Assembly: GCA_034766995.1 (NCBI GenBank)
Contig: CM068323.1
Span: 25,833,214-25,897,213, forward strand
Reading direction: 5' to 3'
Length of the DNA stretch: 64,000 nt
Source: Acanthacorydalis orientalis
Lineage: Eukaryota > Arthropoda > Insecta > Megaloptera > Corydalidae
Shown here: in pieces, positions 14,331 through 50,706 of the stretch
Numbering within the stretch: position 1 is the stretch's first letter
Layout: each line of letters opens with the position of its first letter
Notes under the pieces: model-generated
The model's database searches: none
Seen by the model: only the letters and a program-made list of their open reading frames with translations
Told to the model about the DNA's origin: nothing
Translations under genes and position numbers: made by a program

Positions 14331-14494
14331 ATGTGCCAGGAGGAAGGAACGCCGGCGGATTCCGACGGGAGCACCGTTGCAACGGGAACGGGTGGCGGCG
14401 GCGGCGACGGCGGCGTCGGTGCCGAGCGCTCGGATCAAACGACGCACCATGCGGACGCGCCCGCGGAAACGGATGACGTCACCTGCACGAACGG
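14331..14494 (+). CDS. Ac78C: Ac78C-like exon 1, proposed start
   Basis: The ATG at 14,331 opens 54 codons rich in Gly, Thr, Asp and Glu ([13 protein letters not shown]...). The exon ends at a strong donor (CGG|GTGAGT) with two bases left over. The next recognised exon (36,011) needs exactly one base to restore the frame, giving a Gly codon. Low-complexity acidic and Gly-rich N-termini are usual for this subtype. It could be the first exon of another transcript, or more exons could lie in the 21.5-kb gap. Confidence 0.6.
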
Positions 14495-15769
14495 GTGAGT
14501 GAGTTCATAATTCGTGTAATTAATTGTCGAATATGAATTTTCAAATGTTATAATTAGATTCGGCGGATGGATACGAACGCGCGCACAATGCACACACGAA
14601 CGAAACGCGCGCCGTGCGTTCGTCGCGGCGCCCCCGGACGGGGCTGGCCGGATTCGGCGGTCGTTTCGTGCGATTGTGCGCCCGTGCGTATTTTTAGATT
14701 TGCAGAAGTGTGCGGAAAAATTAGCGAGCGTCGCCGAAATCAGGTGTGGCGGACCGATGCAATATTGACACTGTAAACGGACGGACGGACGGACCGGATT
14801 TCTGAACGTGTAAACAGAAACGAATTTATAAACGGCCGTTTAATTAATCGCACGATACAGATTGAGAACGGAATGCTGCGGTGTCGGTTAACATTCGCAG
14901 GGCCGGTCTCGGGAGTCGTCGAGCGTTTCATCGTCCGTACGCACTTTTTGTACTCGATCGAAATCGACAGAGTTGATTCTGTCTTAACGTCCGTCACGAT
15001 ATCGACTTGTGCTGTTGCTATTTTTCACGTTCTTGATTATTGTTCCTACCCATTCGTTCTCGAAACGAAAAGATATACACACATCTCTGAGGATGACGTT
15101 TTCGACGAATAGATAGATAGATGTACTAAAACCCACTTCAATCGGAAATAATCGGTCATCAGCTGTGATCACAGCTGCTGGTTTGTAACACATTTAACTA
15201 TTTTCAACGAATTTCTTCCGCACTTCTGAAATCAAAAGTTTGTGGTTTCAAAAAGTGCGTAGAAGTCAATACATAGACAACAGTTTGAGGCAGTAAAGTT
15301 ATTTTTATTTTTCAACATAATCCCCTAAGAAAAGAAAAAATATTGTCACCTCGGGGAGAAGAAACACAATAGATAGAAAAATATATAAATAGATATACAG
15401 ATATGCATATATATGTATGATAGATCGATTTATACATTTAGAACGAGGGGATGACGAGATACAAGTTCACACGAAACACAGTACACAGAAAACACAATTA
15501 TTCCGGCTCTGAGTCTGCGGCTCGCACATTTCGACTGCTCGAACAAATATTAATGTACATATAACAAGTTGACATTCTAAATTAACTGTTTTTAATTACA
15601 ATTCGAGCGAAATTAAATTTAAATTAATAGGGATGGTGGAGAAAATCATATTGTGCAAACACAATTACACGGCTGCAGAACGTGGAGGATTTAAAATGTC
15701 GCGTCGTCAGTTTTGCATTTTTATTTCAGCCCACCGCCGTACATGTGCGCACATCTATCTGTCTGTCTA

Positions 15770-15822
<53 letters not shown>

Positions 15823-17193: not shown

Positions 17194-17242
<49 letters not shown>

Positions 17243-21376: not shown

Positions 21377-21447
<71 letters not shown>

Positions 21448-22742: not shown

Positions 22743-22808
<66 letters not shown>

Positions 22809-24558: not shown

Positions 24559-24600
<42 letters not shown>

Positions 24601-24642
24601 TATATTATATATATACATATATATATATACATATATATATAC

Positions 24643-24681
<39 letters not shown>

Positions 24682-26687: not shown

Positions 26688-26757
<70 letters not shown>

Positions 26758-28232: not shown

Positions 28233-28280
<48 letters not shown>

Positions 28281-31200
28281 TGTGTGTCTGTAGGGGATGT
28301 ATCTGCGCTTATATGAATGTGTAAACGAGTCAAAGAACTCGTTTGTTAAGTGGACCTCTTCTAATGGAAGTCAGAACACGATCTCAGGAAATTGTACTTA
28401 GATGCTTTTACTATTACGGAACGATGCGGTCATACATATATGTGTTTTCCCCTCCCCCTCCCCCTTCCTCACATCCATTCGGAATCACTCTGAAGTTCTG
28501 GAAGCACTGGCCTTTGGTTAATTCTTTCTAATCAATATAACGAGTGCACGCTTTTCGATCCGATTACAGTTTATGTCCCGTTCACGGTTCGTAAGCTGAT
28601 CGAACCCGCATAAACAGCAATCGTTATCGTTTCGTCGACAGGAGGAATCACGGCCGACCTTTCGAATAGCGTTCATATTGTTTTATTTATCGGTGCGTAC
28701 AGTTCCCGTATTGATTTCAGACGTCAGGGAAGAATGGTTTCTGTTTCTGACACCATACATCCTAAATCCTAAAATGTGCACATTAGGTCTTAGTATAATT
28801 TTAATAAATTGTATAGAACTACATTCTCTGTTAGAGATTTCAATATTTTAAAAGTAATTAATTTTTTCTCCCTCTCTATCTCCCTTTTAAATTTGTATCC
28901 GTATTTCGTTACGTTAAATAAATTTCCGTTCAAATTTTTATTTTGACAAATTTACATTAAAACATTTATTTTGACAAATAAATTTTTGTATCCACTGTTT
29001 TTCTGTCAAGGAATTTTTTTAAAGAGTTTTTATTCTTATACGGAGTGTTAACGTCCGGTTTTCTTTTACACTGGGGTTATATCCAAGCGGTAACTATCCT
29101 GTTACGGTCTCCCGCTTATCGGGTTTTCATTTCAAATGTACATTTTAAAATACTTAAACGAACCGTTTCACACATTTACATTTACATATGTGTATACGAC
29201 GAAACCTAGTTGGAGAGGCTCGTTAAGCGTTATCGCCGATACTGACTGCGTTTTTGGCAACGCCTCGTTTCAGCGGCGGTACCAGATGGTCTGGAAGCTC
29301 TGCAGGTAAATCGTATCCGTTGAGCTTCACACTGATGAGGTGCATCGCTAGTGCGAACTCCTCGTCGTCGAGCATCCCGTCTTTATCGACGTCGGCCAAC
29401 CTCCACACTTTGCTGAGAATACTGCTCGGCAGCTTCGACTTGATCATCTCGGACTTGGCCGCGTTGCCCGTGATCTTCCCGTCGACCGGCGACAACGTAT
29501 CGAATATCTTATCGTAATCCGGTTTCTCTTTCAGCACGATCCACACATGCTCTCCGTTCCCGGCATCGGCGCCCTCGCCCCTCTTAAAGCCGAACGGCGA
29601 CACCGCATCGACGAGACCCTCGATCACGTTCCCCCTGACCGAACAGTCGCCCCTCTTGTGATTCTCGAGCGGTATCATCTCCATCAATCGAGCTATATCG
29701 TCCGACAACATCTTGTCGACGACCTTCAGCAGTTTCGGCTTGATCGGATGGAATTTCGTGAAATCGTGATGGTACAGGTTGTCCTGCATCTTCGTCAATT
29801 CGGGGAAATCGCCCGGCGATATCTGGTGCTCGTGCTGGAGTCTCTCGTACACGTCCGCCAGATTCTTGATCATGTCCTTCTTCTTATGATCTTTTCCGAA
29901 CACCGTCGGCATGTCTTTCTTCAGCTCGGCTATGATATAGGCGTGCACTTTGGCCAAACGTGCCCGTTTGATCAGATCGTTCAGTTTGCGCAGAGTCGAG
30001 TTACGGGGCAGCGTTTCGATGTCCGTGAACAGGTCGAGCTCTTCCGCTTCGAACAGCTTTCTGTTCGAGTCGTATCTCAACGCCTGATCCCAAAACGAAC
30101 CGATGTACACACGCACGACCTCCGGCGATTGCATGATCCGACCGAGCGACCACATCAGAGCACCGTAGACTCTCATCAGCTGCTGGTGGTCGATCATGTC
30201 GGCCTTGTTGAGAACTATGCGAATTTTATCGTCGTTCCCCCTCAAAAGTTCGATGAAACGTCTGAACTCGTCAGAGATGTCGAGCTTGTGCGCGTCGAAC
30301 AGGAGGATTATCCGATCGACCCTCTCGGCGAACCATTCGAGGACCGCTGTGAAATCGTACGACCTGTGCAGCCTCTGTTTCTCGCCGGACAGAATCCCCG
30401 GCGTGTCCACTATGGAGATCCGTTTGAGCAAGTCGCAACTGACGAGCGAACACTGGAATCTGTTGAGGAAGCTGTTCCCGAATTTCGATAACGGGCCGAA
30501 CTGCTTCTTCGAGTCGACGACGAGCGCGTTTCCCGGTATAATTCCGTTCTTTTCGTCGTACATGACCGTTATGAACTTATCGGTCGTCGGTTCAGGACCG
30601 ATCCGCATACCGGGAAACTCTCTCTCTAACAAATACTTGATGAACGTCGTCTTGCCGGTCGAATACTGGCCGACCAGAAGAATCATCGGCTTCGCGTCGA
30701 AGTCGGGATCGTCGAGCTGCGGCGAGTGGAAATCATGGAACAAGTAATGCTGTTCCAGTGGTAACAGTTTCGTCTTGTAGATTTCTTTCAAGCCTTCGAT
30801 CACCGTGTCATATTGACCGTGTTTGATGTCCTCTTTCGATAACCACGTATGCATATTTTTTACTGTTTTCCCAGTTTAGGAATTCAAATAACAAAAAAAA
30901 ACACTTCTCTGGACAAGCGACGAGTACTTAAATACTTTCTTAAAAGAGCGTTTACTTTTAATGACTGAGTAATGAAACTGTTCGGATGTTTATAGAGGGA
31001 TAGAAATTACAAGATGATTTTAATGTCAAATTCGGGCCGAAATTTGACAAAACAATCATTACTAAGCAACGATCTCAAATAATATATAGATTTTTTTCGG
31101 ATTTACGCTGTTGCTTATCATAAGATGGAAAAGGCAAACCCACAACGTAGCTACAGTCTTAGAGACCCGATGACCAGTATATGTCTTCGGATGTAGCAGT

Positions 31201-31918: not shown

Positions 31919-31972
<54 letters not shown>

Positions 31973-32746: not shown

Positions 32747-32799
<53 letters not shown>

Positions 32800-33136
32800 C
32801 TAAAGAGATGAAGACCGTACTCATAATGATTTCTTCTCAATATCAACTCACTGTGAGATTTGTATAGCACATTTCTCGAGTTTCAGTATAAAATCTACAT
32901 CTGTTCAATGCTGATTTTACAATTCTGCGGATACAATTAAAAAATCATCTCGCGATAAGGTAATAAATCTTTTTCAATTTAATCTCATCTTCTTTCCCTC
33001 TTCAATGTGCAACCGAGTCAAATTAAATGTTTATTTTACAGTGGCGCTCGTTTGAAACGTACGCTCGCATTTCCGACGAATATTTGTTTAAACGAATATA
33101 ATTAAATAACTTTATCAAATTATATACACTCTTACT

Positions 33137-33210
<74 letters not shown>

Positions 33211-36200: not shown

Positions 36201-39200
36201 AACAATCATAAATTCAGATAGTTTTCTGTCGATTATAAATTCAAATATCTCTTGCCATATTAACTGTTTTATCTTCGAACTCGCCAAAAAAGGAATGGTT
36301 TGTGCTATCCGAACTGTTTTTCCTAAATTTTTCTGGGGTATTAAATAAAAGAGACACTTTCTGTCTCTTTTATTTAATACCTAATATTCTGAATGCTGAT
36401 TTGAATTTATTTTTTTTTAAAAAGAAAAATAAACAAATCAGATAATGAACAAACGGGTGCAGGTACAGAACTTGTAGTAAAAAGACAGTGTCTATAAGCC
36501 GAGAACATTTTTGTCCGTTTCCGTTGATCAGTCTCTCACGAATGAAACATTTATAGAATCTAACGAACAGCACTGGACCGCCAGAAGGTGTCCGGCCGGC
36601 GCCAGACGGCGAGAGTTCCGGCGGCCAGAGCGAAGCAGCCCGAGACATCGGCCAGAAATCTTATTTCAGCGACGACGAGCTGTTCTCGAAACACGAATCC
36701 GACGAGCCAATAACACAGCACGGTAATCACTTGTAGATCGATCCTGTCCTCACATTTCATCGCGTGCATGTGCTTGTAGACTTGAGCAAATTCTTCAAAC
36801 GGGGCATCATGCTCAAAGGTATCTACTGGCCGAGCCTCACGAACAGTTTCCAGGATAAACATCTCGAGATGGCATACTTGAGATACTCGCACCGCCAACG
36901 ACAAAAGTCGCTCATAATCGTCAACATCGTTGATATTTTATTAAAGGTATGGCTTTTTTTAAAAAAAACACAGTGTCTTTTTAGTCAGATTCGATTGAAG
37001 AGCAAACTGTTAAAATCTTGTAAGTTTTCTTATCGACAAAAACAAAAACGTTTTTAACATCGACAGCTCTAAGATTCAATCTATAAACAACACAGGAAAA
37101 ACGTTATCATCCCTTTAAACCCTGGACAATTCGAATCCAGTTAAAAAATCCTAATACTAATCCTTCAGAAAATAAATATAATTTTATCATTTTATTTTTT
37201 TATAAAAAAAAACGATAAACAAAATTTACAGTGTAAATAATTTTCAACTGCATCCAAACACTCAAATTGATAACAGCATATCAAAAGAATCATAAATAAG
37301 CATACAAAACAGGAAATAAGGCCTGTCTACACTTGAACAGATCTCCGCCCATAGACAAAAATTTAAACCTACAAAAATGATACGTTTTTTGAAGTGAAGT
37401 GAATGTATTAATTACAATTAATTTTCTTAATACATAATAATAAAAAAATATGATTTGAAAAATATAAGTATTTTTTTAAATAATGATTAATGTCTCTCAT
37501 ACACAATTTACAAGAAAAAGATTTGCTGAAAAAAGTTCAATCCTCCCTTTCCTACATCTACATAAAAATACTGGAGTTTCACTTCCGTCGTGTGTACATG
37601 AGCACACACACACACACACACGTTTTTTATTTATTATTTCTGTGTGAAATTGTAGCTAGTTGTCGGGGTCGTGTGGTGGTTAACCGAAGAACGTGAAACG
37701 AAACTGGATGTCCCGATCACCTGGACTGTGTGTTTCATCGCCGCAAATGTAGGCATCTGTGTCCTCGGCTGTTGGAGATGTTTCGCAAACAATTATCTAC
37801 ATTGGGCTGCTCTGTGTACATGGCTTCTTCTCAACATGCAAGGCACGAAAATGAAAAGTTTCATATCTGTCCGACACCCTCTAACCCCTTAAGCGTTTTA
37901 CTTTATTTCGAGAATGTGCACCGGTCTGGAACGACGAGTATACGCGACGAAAACACAGTAAGATTGAGTTAAATTATAAAAAAAACGATAATTTTTTTGT
38001 TTTTTTCTTTGAAAAATTTTTAATTTTATTGGTCAGTAGTTCACGAATCGTATTTAAGGAATTTAACATTTTATTACAAACAAATTACAAATATATATAT
38101 TTTTGGCTGAATTTTACAATAAATAGCAAAAGCGAATTTTTTCCTGCATGGCGAGTAACATACTCGACATTAAACAAGAAAATGTCATCATTTCATGACG
38201 ATTATTCTCGACATAAACGCTCAGGGGGTTAAATACTTTCTTGTATTGCATGCGATCCCTTTATCGTATCATCCTCTTCGTCTTCGTCTCATTGAATCGT
38301 CTTCTCCCATCTTCTGATAGCTTACCTACCAGAAAATCGCGTAATGACTGAAACCAGAATACTCGAAGATCGATCGAACCGGACCGAATCGAAGAGGATG
38401 ACACTTTGTACGAACAATTTATCTCCACTGATCGTTTTAAAATCGAACATATTTGCTTGAAAATATAAAAATAACTGAACGCGAAAATCTACAGGGTTCA
38501 TCGGGAAAGGTCCGGGCTTCGAGAGCCCTGAACACCTCGTCTGGTACATGTTATTCATCCTGTTCGTGCCGTACGCCATGCTGCCGCTACCCCTCCATTG
38601 GTGTATGATCGCCGGGAGTATAACTGCCGTCATTCATATCTGTATTACGATTTTCACGAGTATTACGAAGGAGGTGAGGAATCGACACGGAGTGAACCGA
38701 AATGTGAAAGTCTGACTCGACACGGTTTTTATTTCCAGTGTCACTACTATACGTTCCAAATCATCAGCAACGCTTTTCTGTATTGCGCGATGAACTTCTC
38801 TGGGATGTACATGAAATATTTGACCGATAGAGGTCAGAGGAAAGCCTTCCTCGAAACGCACCGGTCGATGGAGACGAGGTACAGGACCGAAAAAGAGAAC
38901 GAACGGCAAGAGAAGTTGCTCCTTTCAGGTATGTCTCTCTCCACTGTCGAAACACATCGATTCAATTAGATTCGAATTAACCACGAGAAATCTAAAAAGA
39001 ATCCCTCGATGAGCTCTTAACACACTTTATAAGGGTGGAACATATTCATTTTTCAGACAGATCTCTGTGGAACAGTTTCATGATTTCTTAAGAAAATAAT
39101 TTCAAACATTTTCCATATCTAGATTCCATGGAATCAAATGAGAAACATTTTTATTGACTCGATTTTAATCGAAATTTCTAAAAATCGACCCTGTTACATT

Positions 39201-40865
39201 TTTAACTTTCCCGTTCAGTAAAGTTAGTTGACCGCGTGTTTTTATTTGCAAATAACCGTCTTTCTGTTATTGTTACTTTTTATGTGATGGCGACGAGAAT
39301 ATTTTCCGGGATTGAACGACGGCGTTTTCTCTTTCGCCGTGAAAGTTTCAAAGAATGTCAAGTTATTTAACACTGAGCTACGGTGTCAAGTTTAAAGTTC
39401 GTTGGAATGTTCGATGCCGTTTTAATTGTTTCGAAGCGGAGTCTCGATAAATGTGCAGGGGTTTTTTATTTATAGAGAACACTGGAATGTTCGTTTATAA
39501 ACTGGAGAATTGACTTCAGACGAGACGAATCGATTTCAATGTGAGAATTTCGAAAAATTGAACTCTTAAAATGACAAGATTGGTAACAGTGTTATGATGC
39601 AGACAACCGAGTTGACCGCACGTTTTTATTTGCAAATATCTGTCTTTCTGTTACTCATAGAACATTGATATTCCTTGTAATCCTCTATCGTCCAATACTT
39701 TCACCAATGAATTGTAAAAACAATCATATAAACCACAAATATTGCTTTAATTCTCTGTTTTATTTCATAATGTGTTAATAATTTCGAATATTAAATTCAG
39801 TAAAAAACCTAATTGTCTATAACCGTAATATCTAATTATTATTTACTCAGAATCATGTAAAAACGCATTATAAAAATATGTATTGTAATTTATTTTATTC
39901 TAATTATGGTTTTCTGAGAACAGAGGACATATTTCAATTATGAAGACGTCTGTCCCCACACAAATACCGTAGTATCTCATATACTCAATTTTAAAATTAC
40001 TAAGAAGAGATACGTTGAATATATATAAATAATGATATGATTTAGAAATGTAGTTTTCGTTGTGTATCTAATTCAATCATGAAGTACTGTACACATATAT
40101 AAAATCTCCTGTTTTTATTTCGTTAGCGCGTTAATTTGATATTAAAAAAAAAAAAAGAAAACTCTCAGAGATATTTGAAACTGTTCCCATAAAACTGAAC
40201 ATACTTTCCAGTTCTTCCCGATTTCGTCGTGTGCGAAATGCTGAAAGATCTCACTCACGAAGACGAACACATCGATAACTTCCAGAGGAACCAGTTTCAT
40301 AAAATATACATCCATCAGTACGAGAATGTCAGCATTTTGTTCGCAGACATTAAAGGTTTTACAGGTGAATACTGTTATGCACACTCGACTTCAATAGATG
40401 ATGTTTAAGTTAATTCTTACAGCGCTTGCAACGCAGTGCAGTCCACAAGAACTCGTCAAAGTCCTCAACGACCTATTCGCACGTTTCGATAAACTGGCAT
40501 CGGTGAGTGTTACTGAAGACATTTCGATTCGTTCGAACAGTTTTTTTTAAACCGTATAAACATATCTTTTTAGAACATCCCGTGTAACAAATCATGCCTT
40601 TCGGTAGAGTTTCAACATTTCCGACAAGTCTTGTCGAAATCGACTCAACTATTCTTAATCAGATTCGCATTGAAGACACTTTTCAAAGATTTCGAAACGT
40701 TCCTGACATTCTGTGTAATAAATTATCATTTTTTAAAAAAGTTGAAAGTGTTTTCCGGATTCCTCTACCTGGAATTTATTATATCGTCGCACATAATTTC
40801 AAGAAATTACTCCATTTAATTAACAATCACACAAGTCCTCTATCTTTGACACACTCCTGTTAAGA

Positions 40866-40921
<56 letters not shown>

Positions 40922-43900
40922 AGGACCTGAAAAATAGCATATATTCATGAATTTTCTTCACATAGAAAGTAATGTGGTAATACAAAACTAAAATATACAT
41001 TTTAAAGGGCATACACTGTAGATAATTTTAATATTTTTTTTCAAGTCGATATTTTGCGCCATGCGCTAATAGTAAACCATTACCGAGGTGACATAATCGC
41101 GGTACCAGGTGCATTTCCGGGAGATGTTATCTGAATTAAATTACCTGAAGCACATTTTTGGCTGTAGATCTATTAATTTAGCAATAAAATTTTGTGAAAA
41201 TATTTTTTTAGATGAATAGTACTACCCGAATATGTGATTTTTGTAAAATCGATTTTTTTCACCGTTCAAAAGGCATGTACGCCCTCAATTCCAGCTTTTT
41301 ATACAGATATAGTAATTAACTACACACAGAAACTAGTATGAAAATCAGTTCAGTGATTCTTGAATTCTTCTTGTATACAAGCTAAAAGAGATGCGACTGA
41401 ACAAATGTACTTCTTTGTAATATGAGATGCCAGGATTCAGATCCAAAAACAATCAACGTCTGTATTGTTCAATTAGGAAAACCATTGCTTGCGAATAAAA
41501 CTTCTCGGCGACTGTTACTACTGTGTGTCCGGATTACCAGACAGGCGCTCAGATCATGCACACTGCTGCGTCGAAATGGGACTCCACATGATCAAAGCTA
41601 TACGAGATGTACGTCATATGACACAGGTAAGACGACGTTTCACTCACACCAGACATGTATTTTTTTTTAAAAAAGAAAAAAAACAAGCAAACAAAAAAAA
41701 CGAACAAAGTATTCAAGCGTGCAAGTTTCATAAACGATTGTTTCCATTCAAATCACTTATTATTTTTCCATACGATAAGTTCAGCAAACAGTAACACGAG
41801 GCTGATAATACAGTAGATTAGTGTTTGTTTTTAGAATAGTTTAAAAATCTATACAATCAGTGAATCTGTATGATTTAGTGTAACAATGAGACGAAGAGAT
41901 TTCTTTATCTGCTTGATATATTTTTTTCGTGAGATGACGATATAAACGTGTCAAGAAGCTGCGTACGGTTTATTTATTCATCTCGACTTTAAAGTGAAGT
42001 GTAGTTCGATTCGTGTTCCGTTAAAAAAAAATGTATCAGAAGATCTTGACTAGCGACGAGTGCGACGCCGTGCTGGGGAACGCGCTCGGAAGGAGCGATT
42101 TTCGAATAGTCGAGTATAACATTTCCCCTCTATCCGACACGGCGACCGGATTCCTAGGGGAACACTTTAAAATAACCATCAAGTTCACGGTCGACGACAA
42201 AGAACAGCTGTTGAAATGCTTTATAAAACGAACACCGGACATCACCGATCGACGCAACATCATCGCTGATTTCATAACCGAGTCGAACGCTTTCGGCAAA
42301 GAACTGTTCGTGTATAACACTCTGATCGGTGGAAATAGGGTCGAATGGGCGCCGAGACTGTATTTCTCGAGACGTGAGCTGCTCGTGCTCGAAGACATGG
42401 CGGCGCGCGGCTACGAGACGGCCGTCCGTTGTAAGGATCTCGATTTGGATCACTGCAGGATAGGTCTGAGGACTGTCGCTCAAATGCACGCTTTCGGAAT
42501 AGTCTTCGAGCATAACTTGTCGATGGAGCGCAAGAGGCACGTGAGTCTCATCGAAGAATATCCGGAGATGTTCAGAGAAGTGTTGTTCAGAGCGGAACGG
42601 GACACGATAGGCGGCACGTGGTTCGAATCGAATTTGAAAACGCTTCATAACTATGTCGAGCACCATCCGAACGTCCGGATGGCACGCGACCTGTTCAAAC
42701 AGATCGTCACGGAGAAATCCTCGAAGATTCCGACACATCTGGGACCGTCGAACGAATATCTGAACACTATCTCGCACGGCGACTTGTGGAGCAACAACAT
42801 CCTCTTCGAGACCAAAGACGGTGTGCCGACACACTGTTGTCTTGTCGATTATCAGCTACTGCGCTACACGCCGCCCGCGAACGACGTCCTGATGTTCTTG
42901 GAGTTAAACACGAGCGCGGACTTTAAGAAAAAGCATTTATCAGAACTGCTGATCTACTATTATGAGACGTTGACCGAGGAACTGAAGCTCCACGACATCG
43001 ATTCCTCGCAGATCATTCCGTGGGAGCAATTCGAGAAGAGCTGCGAAGATTACTCAGTCACGTGGAAAATCATTAAGTGTAACTACTTGGCGATCCTCGG
43101 TCTAGAACCGCCGATCTTCGATAACCTGCTGAAAGATATGGACATGTACAGGGACGTGATGTTCTATAAGAAGCACGATTTCGTCATAGAAATGTACCAG
43201 AAATATCCGGTGTACAGGAAGCTCATCGTCGGATTGGTTGACGAACTGCAGGACGTCTTCTTGGCGGACACGATCAAAGAATCGAACTGCGTGAAGATAC
43301 TGAAAGAGAAAAGGAATTCTATCAAAATGAAGAATTCCATCAAATGATATTGATTGGTATTTTTTTTTTGATATTTCAGACTTTCGATATATTGAAACCG
43401 TGCTTTTATGTATTTCTAGATAAAAATATATGTACACATCTAATTTTATGAATAAATTGAACGAGTTATATGTGTTGTTTCGCACCCTATATTCATTCTA
43501 CAATAAATAGAAAATGCATGACTCATATTATGAGTGTTGTTTCCGAGGAATAAAATTTATTACATAAAAAATCAACACATGAAGTCCAAAAATAAAACCA
43601 CCGATTCCCTTTTACTAACATTATATTATACTAGGGGTACCGAAACATTTTTTCGTTTTTTTTTTTAATATGTATTAAAATAAATTAGTTTTTATTTTAA
43701 TACAAAAAAAACAACCAATAATAATGTGGCACTCGGAGGATAATCGTGTCGCAATACAACAATCAAAAACGATCAGTAATTATTTTAAAAACATTTTCAA
43801 TCAATATGCTGAGTGAAAGGGAAAATTCACTCGTGGAATTGTATTCAGCAGAAATATCAGAAACTAATTGTAAAAAAAAAAACAAATATATATTGGAATT

Positions 43901-45555
43901 AGTAAATATCAGGGGTACCGAAATGTTTTTTCGTTTTTTTTTTATATTAAAATAAAAACCAGTTAAGAGGAAAAATGTGTTCTTTATTGGATAACACATT
44001 TTGCATCATTATCTATCACACTCTAAAGTAAATCCTTATAGATCATTTGTGATTGTCGCTTATACACATTTGTATGACTCGTATCAAAAGCGTCTTCAAA
44101 GCATCAGTGTACACTGATAAAGTTACAGTCCATTGATCTGAAGATAAAACAATGTTAGTAGCAAATATAGATACAAATTAAAAAAGAGAGTTTATCTCAT
44201 CTTCTCGACCGATCTGAATGATCGACGAGCAAATATTTGAAATCAATTTAAACAGAATGTCTTTTTATTCGGTTACTCTCCGATGAACGAAACTATGACC
44301 GAATCATCATCCAGGATATTCCACGAATAAGCCGACTGTCTATGTTTCAACAGGTCGATCTGAATATGCGAATCGGAATCCATTCCGGATCGGTCCTGTG
44401 CGGCGTGCTGGGACTAAGGAAATGGCAGTTCGATGTTTGGTCGTACGATGTGACACTGGCGAACCACCTCGAAGCTGGGGGAGTACCTGGGTAAGATACT
44501 GATTCCTTTTATCTTCCGTGCTGTATGCTTCTTTTTCACTTTCTCTACTCGTGACAAATCGAAGAATGCGCGTCTGTTTAAACTCGGACCGTTAATGAAA
44601 AACAATACTAAAATCTGATTTCAGCCGCGTGCACATTTCTAAAAAGACTTTAGAGTATTTGAACGGTGCTTACGAGGTCGAACCCGGTAACGGACAGGAA
44701 CGCAACGCGTATTTGAAAGAACGTAACGTGGAAACATATTTAATCAAGCAGGCGGAACCGCTGAGACCGAGGAGACGTCTAGCTTCACGTCCGAGGTATA
44801 CAAAAAAGAACCATCTGATGTAATAAGAGGTTGCATTGAAAGCCGCTGTTTTTTTGAGGATTTTTTCAATCACAAAATGTGTGAAAGCATCAACTAAAGT
44901 ATTTCCGCTCGGAAGGTGTGACTCTTTCCTACTTTTCTGGTAGAAGTTGAATTCTGCGACGAAAAAATCGCCTGTGTTTTGAGCCAATCCATTTAGCAAC
45001 TCGATTTTTTGACTTATCCGTAGTTATGGAAATGTATATCTTCCATAACGTATTTTCCAATCGATCGGAACAGATGGTAATCGTTTGGGGCCAGATCTGG
45101 ATGAGGGAGAACCTCCCGTTCGAGCTCCATCAGTGGTCAATAAAGGGATGGCGTCTGATGACTGAATTTCAGTGGAAAATGTTCACACTTCAAAATGACA
45201 CAAGATATCTGTTACTACCCACAGCATATGCACCAAGAGTCATCTGCACGCGAACAGCGGCTTTCAATGCAACCTCCGAATATTGAAACAAACCCGAACG
45301 ATAACGCAATAAAACGCCACTGATTACAAACAATCTGAAACGTTCTCGTTCCAGTCTATTCACGAATAAATTCTGGTCAGAGGAGAACAAGCATCCATTG
45401 TTCGGAATAAATTGCACGACCATAGAAATCATTTCGAAGCCGGCGAAGAAGCGAACGCGACAAGATAGCGACCCGATGAACAGCTCCTGTATTGATGATG
45501 AGAACACGACGGATTGGACGCCTGAAATACCTTTTAAAAATGTAACCGTCTGCGT

Positions 45556-45637
<82 letters not shown>

Positions 45638-48600
45638 TCTTCTGATTGGTTCTGATTCTTTCGTGTGATTTTATAGCTGGACTACGCCAGGGAAAACAAT
45701 CTACAAGTGGACGTGATCAAACATGACGGGTTTTATGCAGCAGCCGCAGTGAACGGAGAAATTGAATTCGGCCGGAAGCATCCGACGTCGTCGACTGCAG
45801 AGCATGTCGATGAACTGATGGACCGTTTGATTAAGATCGACACGAATAAGAAAATTCGAGAGGACAACGTGAATCCGTGGACGTTGCAGTTCAAAGATGA
45901 TCAGATTGAGATGAAAGTAAATTTTTGATCGGAATTGAAAACATCAAACATATTTTACTACCGAATATATCATATATTAGCAAATCTAACTGATTATTTT
46001 TTTTTAAAAAAAAAACTAATATTTGTTCGCTTAAACTGATAAACTCTGATTTGGTTTCAGTTCTGTCAGCTACGTGAAGACATGTTTAAATCCAACATGG
46101 TGTGCTGCTTCATCGTCTGGATTTTTATCGTATCTTGTCAAGTGACAATCTTTTCAAAGTATGTAATTCTTGCAAACGCACTCTCGTCCCTGTAGACGTG
46201 CAAGTAATGTCGTGAAGAATCCAGAAAAATACAATTTTTAACATCCGCTAGCATACTCTTTCGTTCAGAACAACGACATTACGTCTCGAGTCCCATTCGA
46301 TCTCGATTCACCTCCGATTTCTCTATTTGCGCAGATGTACCATGCTTCTGATCTGTCTGTGCGTCACGACGCTCCTCCTGTCTGCCACGTCCGTGCTCGT
46401 GATGGCCGAAGAGTTCAATAAACTACCGACGACGCTCCAGAAGACGTCGTCGATGTTAGTTCACAACAGGAACTGTCGCACGGCGTTCATCTGCGTCGTC
46501 ATCATTTTAATGGCCGTCACCAGTTCAGTGAGCCTGGCGCTCTGCTGCCAGGGGGACAAGAGCAACAGGACAAACTGCTGCGCGGACTCTACGAGTTCTT
46601 TCATACGAATCATTCCCGTCATATCGAACACGGACAAGTCGTTGAAGTTGTCGTACAAGAGTACACCGTACGAGAGGACGATGAACGCTTCGAAGACCGA
46701 AAACGATATTGTGTACCACAACGCGAACCGGAACGTCGACGCGCCGAAGTATTACAGGAGGAACACTCCCGCCGAAGTGGAATCGGCGTCGGATGTACCT
46801 GATATCAAATTGGATCTGATACTGCAGTACACGGTTCTCCAGAATTACATCCTACATAGTGACGATCCGGCCATAGATGTCTATAACTGTGGGAGGAACG
46901 AGACTTGTCTGGAGAATTTACTTGCATGCGTCGAAGAATACAAGAGAAACATTGATTTCTATAAAAATGAAACAGCGAAGAGTAATAAGACGAGCGGTTT
47001 GACGAAGAGGAAAGACGGCACTTTCAATATCAGCAAGTGCGATACGGGGAACACTAATATTCAGTACACGCACAATTCGAATTACACACTCAATATAAGA
47101 TACAAGAGATATAGCAGGGATTCGAAGAGTAACAGGACGTACGAAGATGATAACAGTTCAGACACAGACGGACAGAATTACAAGAATTGCACGTACGACG
47201 ATTACGGGGACGGCGAGGGTGAAACGTGCGGCCACCCTGAGTATGTAGTGTTCACGTGGGTGTTATGTTTAGTGGCCGTGGCGACCGCTTTGAAATTGTA
47301 TTATCTGATAAAAACTGCACTGGCGCTCGGCATGGTCACGGTGTTCACACTCTTGATAGCTGTCGGATTCGAGAACGTGTTCAGGCGAGTAAAACCCAAA
47401 TTCTTAACCCAATTGCTTAACACTAAACGTACTACCCCCGGCCGAATGACCGGTTTTAAAATTCGGTTCGAAATTCTGCATTCATTTCTATTTCTTTCGT
47501 CCATTTGACTTCATTACAATTCTTATATTATCCGTTCATCCAGTCCACAAAGAAAAAAAGGAAAACATGCAAGGAACATCGAGAGATCTAAGTAATATTT
47601 CATATTTAAGAAAAACATGCCATATAGGATATTGTAAACGTAATAAAACTGCCAAAACTCGTATGAAGTTTAAGAAATATGTCTGTTGAAAATGTATAGG
47701 GGATGAACCGATAATCTACAAGAAATCCGATGGACAAAACATGCAAGGAACATCGAGAGATCTAAGTAATATTTCATATTTAAGAAAAACATGCCATATA
47801 GGATATTGTAAACGTAATAAAACTGCCAAAACTCGTATGAAGTTTAAGAAATATGTCTGTTGAAAATGTATAGTGGATAAACCGATAATCTGCAAGAAAT
47901 CCGGTGGACAAAATTAAATATTTATCATATATCTCTGAATCGAAAAAATATGAACTTGTTTTCTCCCGTTCTTGTTGAAAATAAAAATGAATTATATTAA
48001 TTTTTTATTATTATCTACAAGTTATTTCGTGCATTGTTTCCTACATTAAATTGACAAATATCTACGTCCATATTCGGAAAAAATATGATCTTAATTTCAT
48101 GACGGGTCGTTTGACCGGTTACGGTACGAATAGGTATATATAAAATGCCGGTACGTTTAATGTTAAACTGTGGAATATAATCTCTCTTTTCAGTGTGAAC
48201 GAATTCACTTTCATAGATCAATGTTTCGATTGATCTCGGCCAGTGTCAAATTTATAATCGAGCCGTTTAAATTTCAGAAGCTCGGAGAAGCAGATAATGT
48301 CCCAAATGCTGATTCTCCTGATCGTTTTCCTGATAATTGTTGCGTATCATGCGAGACTTGTAGAAATCACGTCTCGACTCGACTTCTTATGGAAACAGCA
48401 GGCCGAAAGAGAACTCGCTGACATGATATCGACACGTCACAACAACAGACAACTGCTGAAGAACATTCTACCGGATCATGTGGCCAAACATTTCCTGACC
48501 GAAGACCATCAGCAAGATGTAAAATCATATCTTCTAAGAACGCAATTGAAATCCGTAAGATTCACCGTTTGTAATGTTCCAGGAGTTGTACTCGCAATGG

Positions 48601-50470
48601 CGCGACAAAGTCGGCGTGATGTTTGCTAGTATTCCGAATTTCACCGAGTTCTACTCAGAGGATATAAATAAAGGGATCGAATGTATTCGGGTGCTGAACG
48701 AAATCATAGGTATTTTAATCCGTGCCGAATGCAGATCTGATCTAGCTGAAATGTATGTTTCTTCCCAGTCGATTTCGACGAGCTGCTCGACGAGGAAAGG
48801 TTCCGTTCGATTGAAAAGATCAAAACGATCGGCGACATATACATGGCAGCGTCTGGACTGAACCCCTCCGATAAGGTCTCGCGAACGATTTACAGTGAAA
48901 CAGTGAAATATTAAATATAAAACACCCGTTTTAACGTCACAAACACATTCGTTCCAGGAGAACGCGAACGACGACAATCTGGATCATCTGTGTGCTTTGG
49001 TCGATTTCGCCTTCGCCATGCGACACAAGCTCGACGACGTGAACCAACATTCTTACAACACGTTCAGGTTAAGGGTCGGAATCTCTTGCGGCCCGTTAAT
49101 CGGTGGCGTCATAGGCGCACGGAAGCCGGTATTCGACATTTGGGGTAACACGGTCAACGAGGCGTCGCGGATGGACTCGACAGGAGTTATGGATTTTATA
49201 CAAGTTCCGAAATATACCGCCGAGGTACGCGTCCGCTCCTTTTCTCAAATCTTGTTTATGAATAGAATTGTGCCGAGTGAAAACACACGATCGGGGTTAT
49301 TGAGAAGCGTGTTTGATTTCGAAACAGTTGCTGTCGGCTCGAGGATACCAGACTCAGCTGCGCGGCCCCGTCGATGTAAAAGGGAAAGGTCTGATGGAAA
49401 CATATTATGTACTGGGACGCACGAAAGCGCGCAAGAACGGCTGTGTGCGACAGCCGAGCCAGTGTAGCAGTCTGGCGGCCGTTGTGTACGCGTTGGCGCA
49501 GACACGTCGTAAATTAAATACAAGTAAATTAATTAACAATGTCTTGAACACGGGTAGATGTATGTATGTATGTATACATAATAAACACGATTTCCAGGTG
49601 GTTCGATAATTCTTCGTTCAAAGTCTCGTAAGACTGAGTCGTCGGAAAAGATGAGTAAGCTGATCAATTATAGCTCTATGCGATTGTCTCAAAGGACACC
49701 AGCGCATCCGATCAGAAGGAATACGACTAGGGCACAGCATAGAAATTTACATGCGCGGTATGGATTAGCATACTTTCTTATAATCGGAATAAGCAATGAG
49801 GATCTCAATCAAAACTGTTAAATATTACAAACCACTTGCGTTGTCGCTCTTCGTCCTTTTGGATCAGCTCTGTTCTCCAATAAAGAGAAGACACTCAAGT
49901 TGATCTGAAAGGACGAAGACGATCGGTGCAACGTATCGACAGAGTAATGAATGTAAGAACGTATATTTTTAGTTACAACCCGTCCTTCAGTTTTTCACGA
50001 AAGAATGGCCAATCGAAACGTTCTTTTCGATTAAATTCCAGATTTTTATAAATGAATTTTCACTCTCGAGTCACGAGTCATTATTATCTGTTGTGAATTC
50101 CAGATCTCAGCCGAACATGAGACAGATTGATTCGTCGAACCGGGAGAGTAAACAGACAATAAACACGCCCGACCAGGAGACGAACGGTAGAGTACAAATA
50201 AAAATATCGCAGTCGGCACCTCACACGCCTGTCTCCGCGTCGGTTTACGATCTGTCGAACCACCAAGTTCCTAAACTGCTATCAGAACCGCTCGCGCTGT
50301 CTAAGACGAAGAGCGTGTCGCCGATACTGTTAAAAACGTCGCCGGTCGAAAAGATCAACAACAAAGCGTTCGACAACGACGAGAGACAGCCGTACTCCAG
50401 ACAGACGAGCCTCATTGCGCCAGTGCATTCCCCGAAGTCGATCATGAAATCAGAACCGAAGTTCTGTTGA
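14331..50470 (+). CDS. Ac78C: Membrane adenylyl cyclase, type 8 (Ac78C-like)
   Basis: Converts ATP to cAMP at the plasma membrane. My coding exons are 14331-14494, 36011-36173, 36557-36722, 36780-36946, 37656-37842, 38495-38673, 38739-38928, 40212-40364, 40423-40502, 41477-41626, 44354-44490, 44625-44795, 45355-45541, 45677-45916, 46061-46158, 46335-47384, 48278-48518, 48583-48709, 48769-48875, 48958-49224, 49328-49523, 49598-49757 and 50104-50470. They sum to 4,947 nt with every junction in phase (1,648 aa). Order: cytoplasmic N-terminus, six membrane spans, C1, C1b, six spans with a large extracellular loop, C2, long tail. C1 keeps two metal aspartates (FADIKGFT, about D451; GDCYYC, about D495), 44 residues apart as in the family. 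The C1, C1b, C2 and C2b wording fits vertebrate ADCY8 better than ADCY1, 2, 5 or 9. Introns 5 and 16 appear to use GC donors. Exon 1 is joined across 21.5 kb by phase only. Confidence 0.88.
15772..15819. repeat. (AT)n microsatellite
   Basis: About 48 bp of pure AT in intron 1, preceded by a ctgtctgtcta run. Confidence 0.95.
16130..16154. repeat. (AT)n tract at a mariner insertion site
   Basis: AT run abutting the left end of the mariner remnant. mariner inserts at TA, so AT tracts are natural targets. Confidence 0.9.
16155..16471 (-). mobile_element. mariner remnant with cecropia/Hsmar1-type ends
   Basis: The inverted ends 'ggttggttcaaaaataattg' and 'caattatttttgcaccaatc' lie next to TA. 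They resemble the ends of Hsmar1/MADE1 mariners. The minus strand from about 16,322 to 16,226 reads [20 protein letters not shown], then [10 protein letters not shown] and a stop. This is the usual form of a mariner transposase C-terminus. Everything N-terminal is deleted, so the element is non-autonomous. Confidence 0.8.
17194..17262. repeat. Compound (AT)n/(GT)n tract
   Basis: AT runs with catata and aaatata interruptions, ending in tgtgtgtgtgtg. Confidence 0.92.
17640..18310 (-). mobile_element. Non-LTR retrotransposon remnant, 3' part
   Basis: On the minus strand, about 18,300 to 18,105 reads [20 protein letters not shown], then [20 protein letters not shown]. The C-x2-C-x9-H-x4-C pattern is that of the zinc-knuckle (zf-RVT) segment behind LINE reverse transcriptases. 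Downstream, in broken frames, are an [16 protein letters not shown] stretch and [14 protein letters not shown]. Frame shifts and stops make it inactive. The clade (R1, Jockey or similar) is not decidable here. Confidence 0.6.
18957..18976. repeat. (CT)n microsatellite
   Basis: About 20 bp of CT followed by ttctattctattcta. Confidence 0.9.
19770..19910 (+). mobile_element. piggyBac transposase fragment
   Basis: Two adjoining frames read [10 protein letters not shown] and [20 protein letters not shown], then [11 protein letters not shown] and a stop. The D-E-x-M-I-P-F-K-G-x-x-x-x-K-Q-Y pattern is the conserved block around a catalytic aspartate in piggyBac transposases. A frame shift sits just before it. 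I see only this block, so it is a decayed fragment. It is the best candidate here for a relative of whatever mobilised the TTAA-type MITEs nearby. Confidence 0.75.
20881..21172 (+). mobile_element. Two piggyBac-like MITE left ends
   Basis: 'ttaacccgttaaacgttttg' (20,881) and 'ttaaccccttaagcattctg' (21,036) each start with TTAA plus CCC. Both continue into 'gagaat(g/a).gcac.ggtgtgc', as in the other family members. The second also keeps 'tttccaggcgatgacga'. No right end follows either, so both are truncated. Confidence 0.65.
21380..21461. repeat. (AT)n microsatellite
   Basis: About 82 bp, pure AT then interrupted by two tatg units. Confidence 0.95.
22744..22805. repeat. (AT)n microsatellite
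   Basis: About 62 bp, uninterrupted. Confidence 0.95.
24554..24681. repeat. Long interrupted (AT)n tract
   Basis: About 128 bp of AT with regular 'catatatata' interruptions. It abuts a piggyBac-like MITE end. Confidence 0.95.
24684..24803 (+). mobile_element. piggyBac-like MITE right end
   Basis: From 'ttttacaataaatagcaaaa' to 'ataaacgctcaaggggttaa' this matches the right third of the element at 37,881-38,232. It ends exactly at TTAA (24,800-24,803). The left part has been lost or replaced by the adjacent AT tract. Confidence 0.7.
26692..26755. repeat. (AT)n microsatellite
   Basis: About 64 bp of pure AT directly beside a mariner terminus. Confidence 0.95.
26756..27900 (+). mobile_element. 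Decayed mariner elements, composite
   Basis: The outer ends 'ggggtattggaaagtttttc' (26,756) and 'gaaaaactttccgatagccc' (to 27,898) are inverted repeats. Another end, 'agggggtaccaaaaagtttt', sits inside at 27,566, so at least two copies are joined. Coding remnants on + are [16 protein letters not shown] (27,032-27,080), after a broken [11 protein letters not shown], and [20 protein letters not shown] (27,605-27,665). These match the two N-terminal helix-turn-helix blocks of mariner transposases. Stops are frequent and the catalytic D,D34D part is not seen. Confidence 0.75.
28232..28278. repeat. (AT)n microsatellite
   Basis: About 47 bp with one 'catata' interruption. Confidence 0.93.
28930..29115. 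repeat. Direct repeat, copy left of the EHD gene
   Basis: 'ttattttgacaaatttacat' then 'taaaacattt' and 'aaagagtttttattct.atac' recur in the same order and orientation at 32,580-32,745. Both copies end near '..taa.tatcctgt.ac'/'taattgtcctgtcac'. The two copies bracket the intronless EHD gene. This copy also supplies a minus-strand AATAAA (28,965-28,970), about 255 bp past the EHD stop. Confidence 0.7.
29223..30854 (-). CDS. Past1: EH-domain dynamin-related ATPase (EHD/Past1/RME-1)
   Basis: Full-length 543-codon open frame without introns. EHD proteins bind ATP, oligomerise on membrane tubules and drive endocytic recycling at endosomes and the cell surface. Visible parts: N-terminal helix with [17 protein letters not shown]-loop GQYSTGKTT (62-70); [12 protein letters not shown] (150-153); NKAD (216-219); helical middle with [18 protein letters not shown]-terminal EH domain (about 437-533) with an EF-hand [13 protein letters not shown] (488-500) and HLVPPLKR. 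Length and start match the family (about 535-550 aa). It lies antisense in intron 1 of the cyclase gene. Lack of introns amid intron-rich neighbours suggests a retrocopy, but the frame and all motifs are intact, so it is probably functional. Confidence 0.96.
   Translation of the reverse strand: MHTWLSKEDIKHGQYDTVIEGLKEIYKTKLLPLEQHYLFHDFHSPQLDDPDFDAKPMILLVGQYSTGKTTFIKYLLEREFPGMRIGPEPTTDKFITVMYDEKNGIIPGNALVVDSKKQFGPLSKFGNSFLNRFQCSLVSCDLLKRISIVDTPGILSGEKQRLHRSYDFTAVLEWFAERVDRIILLFDAHKLDISDEFRRFIELLRGNDDKIRIVLNKADMIDHQQLMRVYGALMWSLGRIMQSPEVVRVYIGSFWDQALRYDSNRKLFEAEELDLFTDIETLPRNSTLRKLNDLIKRARLAKVHAYIIAELKKDMPTVFGKDHKKKDMIKNLADVYERLQHEHQISPGDFPELTKMQDNLYHHDFTKFHPIKPKLLKVVDKMLSDDIARLMEMIPLENHKRGDCSVRGNVIEGLVDAVSPFGFKRGEGADAGNGEHVWIVLKEKPDYDKIFDTLSPVDGKITGNAAKSEMIKSKLPSSILSKVWRLADVDKDGMLDDEEFALAMHLISVKLNGYDLPAELPDHLVPPLKRGVAKNAVSIGDNA
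31925..31969. repeat. (AT)n microsatellite
   Basis: About 45 bp, preceded by ttatattatatta. Confidence 0.93.
32580..32745. repeat. Direct repeat, copy right of the EHD gene
   Basis: Second copy of the 28,930-29,115 repeat, same orientation, diverged in its centre (tttctcgaataaattttta versus attttgacaaataaattttt). It ends shortly before an AT tract. Confidence 0.7.
32755..32796. repeat. (AT)n microsatellite
   Basis: About 42 bp, directly after the second direct-repeat copy. Confidence 0.93.
33137..33208. repeat. Interrupted (AT)n tract
   Basis: About 72 bp with two 'acat' interruptions, about 180 bp upstream of an EcKinase start. Confidence 0.93.
33386..34708 (+). CDS. EcKinase-like small-molecule kinase, copy 1
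   Basis: Complete single-exon gene, 440 codons, usual length for the arthropod EcKinase (ecdysteroid kinase-like, PF02958) family. These cytosolic enzymes have a choline-kinase/APH fold; some phosphorylate ecdysteroids and others are linked to detoxification. Visible: [13 protein letters not shown] (N-lobe glycine-loop region), FFVKRKP (ATP lysine candidate), LVVLEDL hinge, catalytic [12 protein letters not shown] (H251-G252-D253) and metal-binding LVDYQ (D275-Y276-Q277) followed by [10 protein letters not shown]. The ATG at 33,386 follows aaaaaac and starts the family-typical [11 protein letters not shown]. Two AATAAA motifs follow at 34,868 and 34,879. The gene lies on the same strand inside cyclase intron 1. 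The substrate cannot be told from sequence. Confidence 0.93.
   Translation: MCSEILTREECETVLKNSLKNTDCTLIDYKIAPFSKNLSGFLGEYFKLTIEFVVDNRETSTSFFVKRKPNTGDSENIVADFINETNAFNKELFFYQRIIAGADVEWAPKYHFSKTNELVVLEDLIAEGYEPSPRINELDMEHCKVALTTIAQFHAFCITHEHNKSVELGRPYSSIDEFPDSFTEVLFEDKPDRLGYMWFHTGLRCFRAFIDEYPNTNTMSRDTFKKLFERKFYEIREQIRPSKRYFNTISHGDIWSNNLLFRKKNGRPEHCYLVDYQLMRYNPPANDVLMFLMFNTSLDFHNKHTPELLIYYHGRLAEELNRAGLDCSQIIPWDEFEKSCKHFSTTWKLVRFVYLSVHSLDDAIVDEFLTDMDKYKNMMFFNREKLLLDVYKNDEKFRGIIIRMMDDIRDTLSVEILNRIDCVRILKEKRNSTKKKHHNE
34868..34884 (+). terminator. Two polyadenylation signals of EcKinase copy 1
   Basis: AATAAA at 34,868-34,873 and 34,879-34,884, about 160 bp after the stop codon. A transcript ending here would be independent of the host intron. 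Confidence 0.6.
35338..35403. repeat. Dispersed repeat, partner of 10,375-10,445
   Basis: See the partner entry; about 65 bp of similarity, same orientation. Confidence 0.55.
36011..36946 (+). CDS. Ac78C: Ac78C-like exons 2-4, cytoplasmic N-terminal part
   Basis: Exons 36011-36173, 36557-36722 and 36780-36946. Exon 2 holds a Cys-rich patch (NCVQKCCEV). Exon 3 is Gly, Pro and Ser rich with an acidic SDDELF motif. Exon 4 has the family-typical lead into the first membrane span: [11 protein letters not shown], then [15 protein letters not shown], comparable to the YFFPTLRKTF ... QRRKSEVVMN region of vertebrate ADCY8. A perfect 20-bp hairpin lies in the intron at 36,337-36,381. Confidence 0.75.
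36337..36381. repeat. Perfect 20-bp hairpin in a cyclase intron
   Basis: Arms 36,337-36,356 (ggtattaaataaaagagaca) and 36,362-36,381 are exact reverse complements around a 5-nt loop (ctttc). It lies in intron 2 of the cyclase, 175 bp before the next exon. The right arm is preceded by no known mobile-element end. Confidence 0.95.
37656..38928 (+). CDS. Ac78C: Ac78C-like exons 5-7, first membrane cassette
   Basis: Exons 37656-37842, 38495-38673 and 38739-38928 encode hydrophobic segments including [37 protein letters not shown] and [17 protein letters not shown]. After these comes the conserved [17 protein letters not shown] helix that leads into C1. The exon 5 donor is read as AAG|GCACGA. A GT donor 16 bp downstream (AAA|GTTTCA) would also keep the frame and add five or so residues. 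The intron carries a piggyBac-like MITE. Confidence 0.8.
37881..38232 (+). mobile_element. piggyBac-like MITE, complete
   Basis: About 352 bp with terminal inverted repeats 'taaccccttaagcgtttta' and 'ataaacgctcagggggttaa'. Interior blocks 'gagaatgtgcaccgg' and 'caataaatagcaaaagcgaa' recur in the other copies. It sits about 40 bp downstream of the exon 5 donor of the cyclase gene. No coding sequence. Confidence 0.8.
39224..39652 (+). repeat. Dispersed repeat flanked by direct repeats, cyclase intron 7
   Basis: 39,283-39,410 is the inverted partner of 13,158-13,282. On either side, 'gttgaccgcgtgtttttatt' (39,227) and 'gttgaccgcacgtttttatt' (39,610) begin a direct repeat of about 45 bp ('tgcaaata..' and '..gtctttctgtta'). 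Confidence 0.65.
40212..44795 (+). CDS. Ac78C: Ac78C-like exons 8-12, C1 catalytic domain
   Basis: Exons 40212-40364, 40423-40502, 41477-41626, 44354-44490 and 44625-44795. Motifs in order are [11 protein letters not shown] (metal site), [20 protein letters not shown] (second metal site), [30 protein letters not shown] and [19 protein letters not shown]. The run [15 protein letters not shown] and the [17 protein letters not shown] segment follow. No catalytic residue is missing. The intron between the third and fourth exons holds a complete EcKinase gene. Confidence 0.93.
40869..40915. repeat. (AT)n microsatellite
   Basis: About 47 bp of AT in cyclase intron 9. Confidence 0.95.
42031..43347 (+). 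CDS. EcKinase-like small-molecule kinase, copy 2 (nested)
   Basis: Complete single-exon gene of 438 codons, paralogue of the 33,386 gene; by eye roughly half of the residues agree. Visible: [45 protein letters not shown] (H249-G250-D251), [20 protein letters not shown] (D273-Y274-Q275) and a lysine-rich C-terminus like copy 1. All catalytic residues are present. It lies on the same strand within intron 10 of the cyclase gene, between exons encoding adjacent parts of C1. The GC-rich coding sequence contrasts with the AT-rich intron. A nearby AATAAA (43,451) suggests its own 3' end. Substrate unknown. Confidence 0.93.
   Translation: MYQKILTSDECDAVLGNALGRSDFRIVEYNISPLSDTATGFLGEHFKITIKFTVDDKEQLLKCFIKRTPDITDRRNIIADFITESNAFGKELFVYNTLIGGNRVEWAPRLYFSRRELLVLEDMAARGYETAVRCKDLDLDHCRIGLRTVAQMHAFGIVFEHNLSMERKRHVSLIEEYPEMFREVLFRAERDTIGGTWFESNLKTLHNYVEHHPNVRMARDLFKQIVTEKSSKIPTHLGPSNEYLNTISHGDLWSNNILFETKDGVPTHCCLVDYQLLRYTPPANDVLMFLELNTSADFKKKHLSELLIYYYETLTEELKLHDIDSSQIIPWEQFEKSCEDYSVTWKIIKCNYLAILGLEPPIFDNLLKDMDMYRDVMFYKKHDFVIEMYQKYPVYRKLIVGLVDELQDVFLADTIKESNCVKILKEKRNSIKMKNSIK
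43451..43456 (+). terminator. Polyadenylation signal of EcKinase copy 2
   Basis: AATAAA about 105 bp after the stop codon, still inside the host intron. If used in the host transcript it would truncate the cyclase message within C1. Confidence 0.5.
43634..43965 (+). mobile_element. mariner terminus pair in cyclase intron 10
   Basis: 'aggggtaccgaaacattttt' (43,634) and 'aggggtaccgaaatgttttt' (43,911) are two copies, in the same orientation, of the end of the mariner family at 26,756-27,900. The second continues with 'atattaaaataaaaaccagt', matching the sub-terminal part of that family. No transposase frame remains. Confidence 0.65.
44827..45277 (-). mobile_element. mariner remnant with transposase C-terminal half
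   Basis: Inverted ends 'gaggttgcattgaaagccgc' and 'gcggctttcaatgcaacctc'. In minus-strand frames I read [20 protein letters not shown] and, after a frame change, [12 protein letters not shown], then a stop where tryptophan is usual, then [12 protein letters not shown]. The D-L-A-P-x-D-Y-H-L-F block contains the third catalytic aspartate of mariner transposases. The N-terminal half is deleted. It lies in cyclase intron 12. Confidence 0.82.
45355..45916 (+). CDS. Ac78C: Ac78C-like exons 13-14, C1b linker
   Basis: Exons 45355-45541 and 45677-45916. They contain WTPEIPFKN and, near the end, [15 protein letters not shown], which align with the ADCY8 C1b segments around SPELPFDN and FSLMFKD. The middle is hydrophilic and subtype-specific. 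The 135-bp intron between them is more than half an (AT)n tract. Confidence 0.85.
45560..45636. repeat. (AT)n microsatellite filling a short intron
   Basis: About 77 bp of pure AT inside the 135-bp intron between exons 13 and 14 of the cyclase gene. Confidence 0.96.
46061..48518 (+). CDS. Ac78C: Ac78C-like exons 15-17, second membrane cassette with large loop
   Basis: Exons 46061-46158, 46335-47384 and 48278-48518. Predicted spans include [90 protein letters not shown] and [16 protein letters not shown]. Between spans three and four lies a hydrophilic loop of about 234 residues with ten N-X-S/T sites and several cysteines. It ends at CGHPEY, where the vertebrate protein has SYPEY. The last exon runs into C2 via RLDFLWKQQ and [14 protein letters not shown]. 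The donor after the long exon reads CAG|GCGAGT. Confidence 0.87.
47562..47909. repeat. Two-copy tandem repeat, 174-bp unit
   Basis: Copies 47,562-47,735 and 47,736-47,909 differ at only a few positions (for example ggggatgaac versus gtggataaac). They lie in the GC-AG intron 16 of the cyclase gene. High identity indicates a recent duplication. Confidence 0.95.
48583..49523 (+). CDS. Ac78C: Ac78C-like exons 18-21, C2 catalytic domain
   Basis: Exons 48583-48709, 48769-48875, 48958-49224 and 49328-49523. Motifs are [52 protein letters not shown] (ATP-site lysine present), [20 protein letters not shown] and [18 protein letters not shown] (Asn and Arg of the catalytic site present). The segment [16 protein letters not shown] follows. 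The end ([16 protein letters not shown]) aligns with the C2b part of ADCY8 known to bind calmodulin, so Ca2+/calmodulin control is plausible but inferred. Confidence 0.93.
49598..50470 (+). CDS. Ac78C: Ac78C-like exons 22-23, C-terminal tail
   Basis: Exons 49598-49757 and 50104-50470. A basic, Ser/Thr-rich tail of about 175 residues with no domain I recognise. It ends at TGA 50,468-50,470. It is longer than the vertebrate tail. The intron holds a 21-bp-stem hairpin (49,849-49,918). Confidence 0.8.
49849..49918. repeat. Intronic hairpin with 21-bp stem
   Basis: cttcgtccttttggatcagct (first 20 nt at 49,849-49,868) pairs with 49,898-49,918 (ends tgaaaggacgaag) with three mismatches around a loop of about 28 nt. 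It lies in the intron before the last cyclase coding exon. Confidence 0.8.

Positions 50471-50648: not shown

Positions 50649-50666
<18 letters not shown>

Positions 50667-50703: not shown

Positions 50704-50706
<3 letters not shown>

Follow-up and report, generated by a model that had tools for sequence, protein, structure and literature searches.

Can one signalling gene hold several complete, independent genes in its introns, and does such a guest disturb its host? This question is raised by a stretch of 64,000 nucleotides from the insect Acanthacorydalis orientalis (hereafter the window), in which three intronless coding frames lie in or next to an adenylyl cyclase gene. We conclude, with a probability of about 0.72, that an Ac78C/AC8 gene here carries independent genes in introns 1 and 10, the EHD gene being most likely a retrocopy and the two EcKL genes being paralogues, most likely from a local duplication. 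The arrangement thus read appears largely real and of a familiar kind, and it would provide a clear case of a single signalling gene with up to three intact single-exon guest genes, one of them probably a constrained EHD retrocopy.

Structure and identity of the host gene

The cyclase was modelled with in-phase donor/acceptor pairs around conserved anchor peptides, and the model was later corrected against the sequences of relatives. The rebuilt gene comprised 23 exons on the + strand (14331-50470), with 4947 nt and 1648 codons that stayed in phase and had their sole stop at the end. It agreed with the original prediction of a 23-exon, in-phase cyclase on exon number, ends and the four intron borders quoted there.

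Downstream of the putative first coding exon, which is discussed below, the in-phase splice model placed exons 2 (36011..36173) and 3 (36557..36722), and homology began at exon 4 (36780..36946) and continued from there. Exons 5 (37656..37842, with a GC donor), 6 (38495..38673) and 7 (38739..38928) are followed by the C1 exons, namely exon 8 (40212..40364, with ILFADI), exon 9 (40423..40502), exon 10 (41477..41626, with GDCYYC), exon 11 (44354..44490) and exon 12 (44625..44795), where C1 ends. The splice model then gave exons 13 (45355..45541), 14 (45677..45916) and 15 (46061..46158), exon 16 (46335..47384), which encodes a long extracellular loop and has a GC donor, and exon 17 (48278..48518). 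C2 is encoded by exon 18 (48583..48709), exon 19 (48769..48875, with EKIKTIG) and exon 20 (48958..49224, with a Pfam match and a motif of ten residues running on to SRMD). After exon 21 (49328..49523), again from the splice model, exon 22 (49598..49757) matched the relatives' RRNTTRA..HAR, and exon 23 (50104..50470), with the stop codon, matched their SQPNMRQ and SAPHTPVSA. An acceptor at 46070 for exon 15 was rejected because it left out FCQ, which the relatives have, and 46061 was used instead; a 22-exon version of the 3' end was dropped in favour of exons 22 and 23, taken from the relatives' sequences. Introns 5 and 16 are GC-AG introns (donors at 37842 and 47384). Intron 16 also contains a direct duplication of 174 bp (47562-47913, 97% alike).

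With its two membrane blocks, C1 and C2, the host is, judged by its sequence, an orthologue of adenylyl cyclase type 8 (Ac78C) with an ordinary design. Its named relatives among the best 120 of 4096 matches were AC8 or Ac78C, and the likeness covered the whole protein, the catalytic motifs and the C-terminal tail of insect orthologues. Among solved structures, queried with exon pieces, AC8 (8buz) reached 861 bits, compared with 695 for AC5 and 389 for AC9. The nearest relative was that of Carabus, at 68% in shared columns, and in a 44-row quick tree of the final 23-exon protein the host, on a branch flagged as long (0.71), formed a set of 21 rows with its sister group of 20 beetle or beetle-like rows (SH-aLRT 97). 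Such a position would fit either a beetle lineage absent from the sample or one near the beetles, such as Strepsiptera or Neuropterida. In the earlier 22-exon version of the protein, 26 of 432 near-invariant columns were changed, against a median of 4, with four rows higher still; two of the 26 changes were due to the FCQ gap of that version. These values suggest that the host is somewhat fast-evolving too. Compared with known Ac78C/AC8 genes, it is peculiar only in its two GC-AG introns and its nested genes.

Three intact single-exon frames

Stop-to-stop frames of 550, 443 and 440 codons were identified by Pfam as EHD, EcKL and EcKL, respectively. In Markov-1 simulations (100 runs) modelled on 31 kb of the cyclase introns, the longest chance frame reached at most 220 codons, with a median of 135. 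Third codon positions of the three frames are GC-rich (0.74, 0.67 and 0.69), compared with an intron GC of 0.36. Frame lengths and Pfam together bore out the earlier statement that three complete single-exon frames are present, with the identities and strands given for them. The term intronless applies here to the coding frames of EHD and both EcKLs, with UTRs outside the claim.

EcKL copy 1 is a single coding exon of 440 aa on the + strand (33386..34708; PF02958, 167 bits), and copy 2 is one of 438 aa, also on the + strand (42031..43347; PF02958, 155 bits). Both PF02958 matches cover almost the whole profile, far beyond the cut-off of 22 bits, and both copies keep H-G-D-x-W-S-N-N (HGDIWSNN in copy 1, HGDLWSNN in copy 2) and VDYQ, which we take to be the catalytic kinase motifs. 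The copies are 48% identical over 437 positions and point in the host's direction; they are paralogues, which arose most likely by local duplication. Differences between them by codon position amounted to 160, 116 and 241 of 438, and the NG86 estimates were 0.41 for dN and 2.1 for dS, the latter saturated; codon-position pattern and dN/dS values together indicate purifying selection on the EcKLs. A protein search with copy 1 returned one relative, a bee protein at 26%, by a method that needs shared 5-residue words and can miss relatives. The EcKL family, as described in passages of PMC12117438, contains established ecdysteroid kinases as well as genes suspected of a role in detoxification. PF02958 and the kinase motifs of that family are common to both copies in the window, for which ecdysteroid phosphorylation is a putative activity.

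The EHD gene as a probable retrocopy

The EHD gene, of the Past1 type, is a single coding exon of 543 codons including the stop on the - strand (29226..30854), identified by Pfam, by motifs totalling 23 residues and by trees. Its frame encodes EHD_N, Dynamin_N, DUF5600 and a C-terminal EH domain, with a dynamin-like G domain; the nucleotide-binding motifs and all domains are intact.

This protein is unusually divergent. Its mean identity to 111 relatives was 73.6%, the lowest of 112 rows, and 18 of 288 near-invariant positions were changed, while the highest other row had 15 and the median was 1. With rising column variability, the changes relative to the 111 relatives went from these 18/288 to 31/116, 43/85 and 28/41; they concentrate in variable columns, indicating a constrained protein. 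EHD lies 3 to 8 points farther from five outgroups than the nearest of five beetle EHDs (71.5% to Daphnia, for example, against 78.7-81.3% for the beetle proteins), whereas in the same comparison the host AC8, in its 22-exon version, fell within six beetle AC8s or no more than about 1.3 points lower. These sequence comparisons suggest that EHD evolves faster than its host, yet is still constrained. Its placement in trees appears unstable: EHD fell outside all 58 others in a midpoint-rooted quick tree of 59 rows, and beside 11 beetles in a tree of 27 rows (88/77, not starred).

Other insects provide a comparison for the intron-free frame. In Homalodisca and Rhynocoris, EHD isoforms are distinguished by cassette segments within the linker that precedes the EH domain, which implies that insect EHD coding regions have introns; the window EHD is contiguous there. 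Augochlora isoforms showed an N-terminal difference only. EHD and Ac78C were on different contigs, of unequal size, in 22 of 22 comparable species found in both best-120 lists, where a size may be that of another member of the 90% cluster and two further shared species came without sizes. Because the window EHD is intron-free, relocated, and faster but constrained, a retrogene is the best reading, and the gene is probably an old, lineage-specific retrocopy. A spliced EHD message would have been reverse-transcribed and inserted antisense in intron 1, and the full, constrained protein would then have been kept.

No poly(A) tract was seen near EHD (no A run of at least 8 behind its stop), nor was there a target-site duplication of at least 11 bp around it, so the absence of introns is the one pointer to retroposition. 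Both marks decay with age. EHD could instead be an old EHD after intron loss, or the lineage's only EHD. A viral-contig scan with EHD gave no match. Two direct copies of a dispersed repeat (85%) flank the gene at 28916-29051 and 32568-32702, and no sign was found that they had moved it.

Nesting and the first exon

Nesting can be securely read from the sequence for EcKL copy 2. Intron 10 (41627-44353) contains its whole coding region, and the exons on either side encode GDCYYC...HMTQ and a 12-residue segment, respectively, both conserved C1. With conserved C1 exons on both sides of intron 10, this nesting is secure, and the original prediction that copy 2 splits the C1 exons is upheld. EHD and EcKL copy 1 both lie in the 21,516-bp gap from exon 1 to exon 2, and they are nested in intron 1 provided that exon 1 is correct. 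The original prediction had placed all three guests inside the cyclase; this stands for EcKL copy 2, while for the other two it hinges on an exon whose homology goes no further than its first two residues.

The putative exon 1 (14331..14494, +) starts with ATG, and its donor (GTGAGT) fits the acceptor at 36011 in phase. It encodes a low-complexity protein segment. The surrounding GC-rich region (14001..15000) may be a promoter, with GC of 0.52 and 0.50 and a CpG o/e of 1.9-2.1; its bin 14001-14500 is among the five GC-richest of 127. Exon 1 is thus a putative exon, suggested by phase, splice donor and GC content, with a homology confined to the starting MC.

A different reading, which we regard as unlikely though well worth weighing, places exon 1 outside the cyclase. 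The gene would then start at or near exon 2, at one of two in-frame ATGs, 36024 or 35982 (the latter just 5' of the exon-2 acceptor), so that EcKL copy 2 would be the single nested gene and EHD and EcKL copy 1 would be upstream neighbours. It is favoured by the missing homology: MC was shared by 5 of 17 beetle or beetle-like rows among the matches listed, and tblastn of the N-termini of 18 relatives against the window gave no convincing match to exon 1, the sole sense match being glycine-rich with an E of 0.077. The ATG at 36024 is in frame with the cyclase, and the LWxKAV-type N-terminal segment of insects was looked for in the window and not found. On the other hand, the exon 1 to exon 2 junction keeps the phase and uses a donor and an acceptor close to consensus, exon 1 lies within the promoter-like stretch, and the N-terminus of relatives usually runs to about 100 residues or more ahead of the first membrane segment. 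We therefore prefer a cyclase that begins at exon 1, with guests in introns 1 and 10.

An assembly artefact, that is, an inserted or misjoined contig in intron 1 or intron 10, is a further reading. This is the least credible of the explanations weighed here, since the window is free of any N, all 23 cyclase exons are in order and phase, and two related same-strand EcKLs in two introns are more readily explained by local duplication than by a chance join.

Such an arrangement has many precedents. In Drosophila melanogaster, 1,651 nested genes sit in 865 hosts, and 727 of them run in the host's direction, according to the counts given in PMC3890989; nested genes are put at about 6% of fly genes in PMC3786989. 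The pair tim2/2mit is another insect arrangement of this kind. Nested genes are thus common in flies, and the presence of complete genes in host introns, the general part of the original prediction, is consistent with published work. The guests described here, like the insect intronic nested genes of those two sources, are complete genes on either strand in the introns of a larger multi-exon gene; unlike in those fly cases, the host is Ac78C and the guests are EHD and two EcKLs. A narrow literature search for a nested gene together with an ecdysteroid kinase found none. Each nested gene would have its own promoter and its own poly(A) site, and host transcription would read through the guests, which splicing would remove.

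A proposed poly(A) switch in intron 10

The original prediction further held that a premature 3' end at 43451 would truncate the cyclase in C1 and couple kinase output to a loss of cAMP synthesis. An AATAAA is indeed present (43451..43456, +), which is likely the poly(A) signal of EcKL copy 2, and the predicted truncated message would hold 533 of the host's 1648 codons, followed by 55 codons of read-through. Under such a cis switch, transcription of EcKL copy 2 or use of its poly(A) site would end cyclase messages inside C1, and kinase expression and cAMP synthesis would be mutually exclusive. Copy 2 lies on the host strand in the intron that splits C1, and all six AATAAA copies of intron 10 are downstream of its stop. 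The mouse H13/Mcts2 pair works like the proposed switch, since there the host can be forced into intronic polyadenylation by an active nested gene on its own strand (in the account of PMC13309782), and a nested gene of C. elegans is described as inducing a short host form (PMC12274878).

Against this, AATAAA is common, with 64 copies in 31,193 bp of cyclase introns, and a normal 3' end of EcKL copy 2 within AT-rich DNA would be expected to show such copies downstream of the gene. In the Drosophila study of PMC3890989, poly(A) signals within introns are reported to be ignored as long as a 5' splice site lies upstream, and to be used very rarely. In Bombyx prothoracic glands, the relevant passages of PMC6045881 name AC1-, AC5- and AC9-like genes, and not AC8. 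Because AATAAA is frequent and intronic signals are normally silent in Drosophila, nothing specific to this locus speaks for the switch, which we consider very improbable; the motif of the original claim stands, and its coupling to cAMP loss is not supported as it was stated. A little less probable still is the fuller version, in which EcKL copy 2, as a putative ecdysteroid- or xenobiotic-inactivating kinase, would force the cyclase to end in C1 as an inactive membrane stub of 588 residues. If it were true, steroid-inactivating cells would stop AC8 cAMP production with no need of a diffusible regulator.

The mouse precedent makes a switch possible, and at the present locus it is a matter of deduction. 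The two cases share a single-exon guest in the host's direction within an intron, which could interfere with the host (compare PMC13309782). They differ in that the intronic polyadenylation of H13/Mcts2 was shown by experiment and is tied to imprinting, while Ac78C/EcKL2 is known from sequence. On present evidence, EcKL copy 2 most likely does not disturb its host. The locus lends itself as a natural experiment, in a non-mammal, on whether a host is disturbed by a nested gene on its own strand that interrupts a catalytic domain.

Surrounding sequence

Six-frame Pfam scans of 1-14330 and 14495-29220 found no family, and Rfam gave no match; elsewhere, Pfam covered the large frames of 29221-36010 and four of the six frames of 50471-64000. 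Pfam identified three downstream genes, namely a DHHC palmitoyltransferase (52774-53445, +), a PF15002 (ERK-JNK_inhib) protein (55293-55874, -) and a DEAD-box helicase that reaches the window end (62159-64000, -). Upstream of the cyclase, a tandem-like array with a unit of about 500 bp occupies 6817-8185 (92% over 867 bp), and a dispersed repeat occurs as an inverted pair (88%) at 13144-13281 and 39270-39407.
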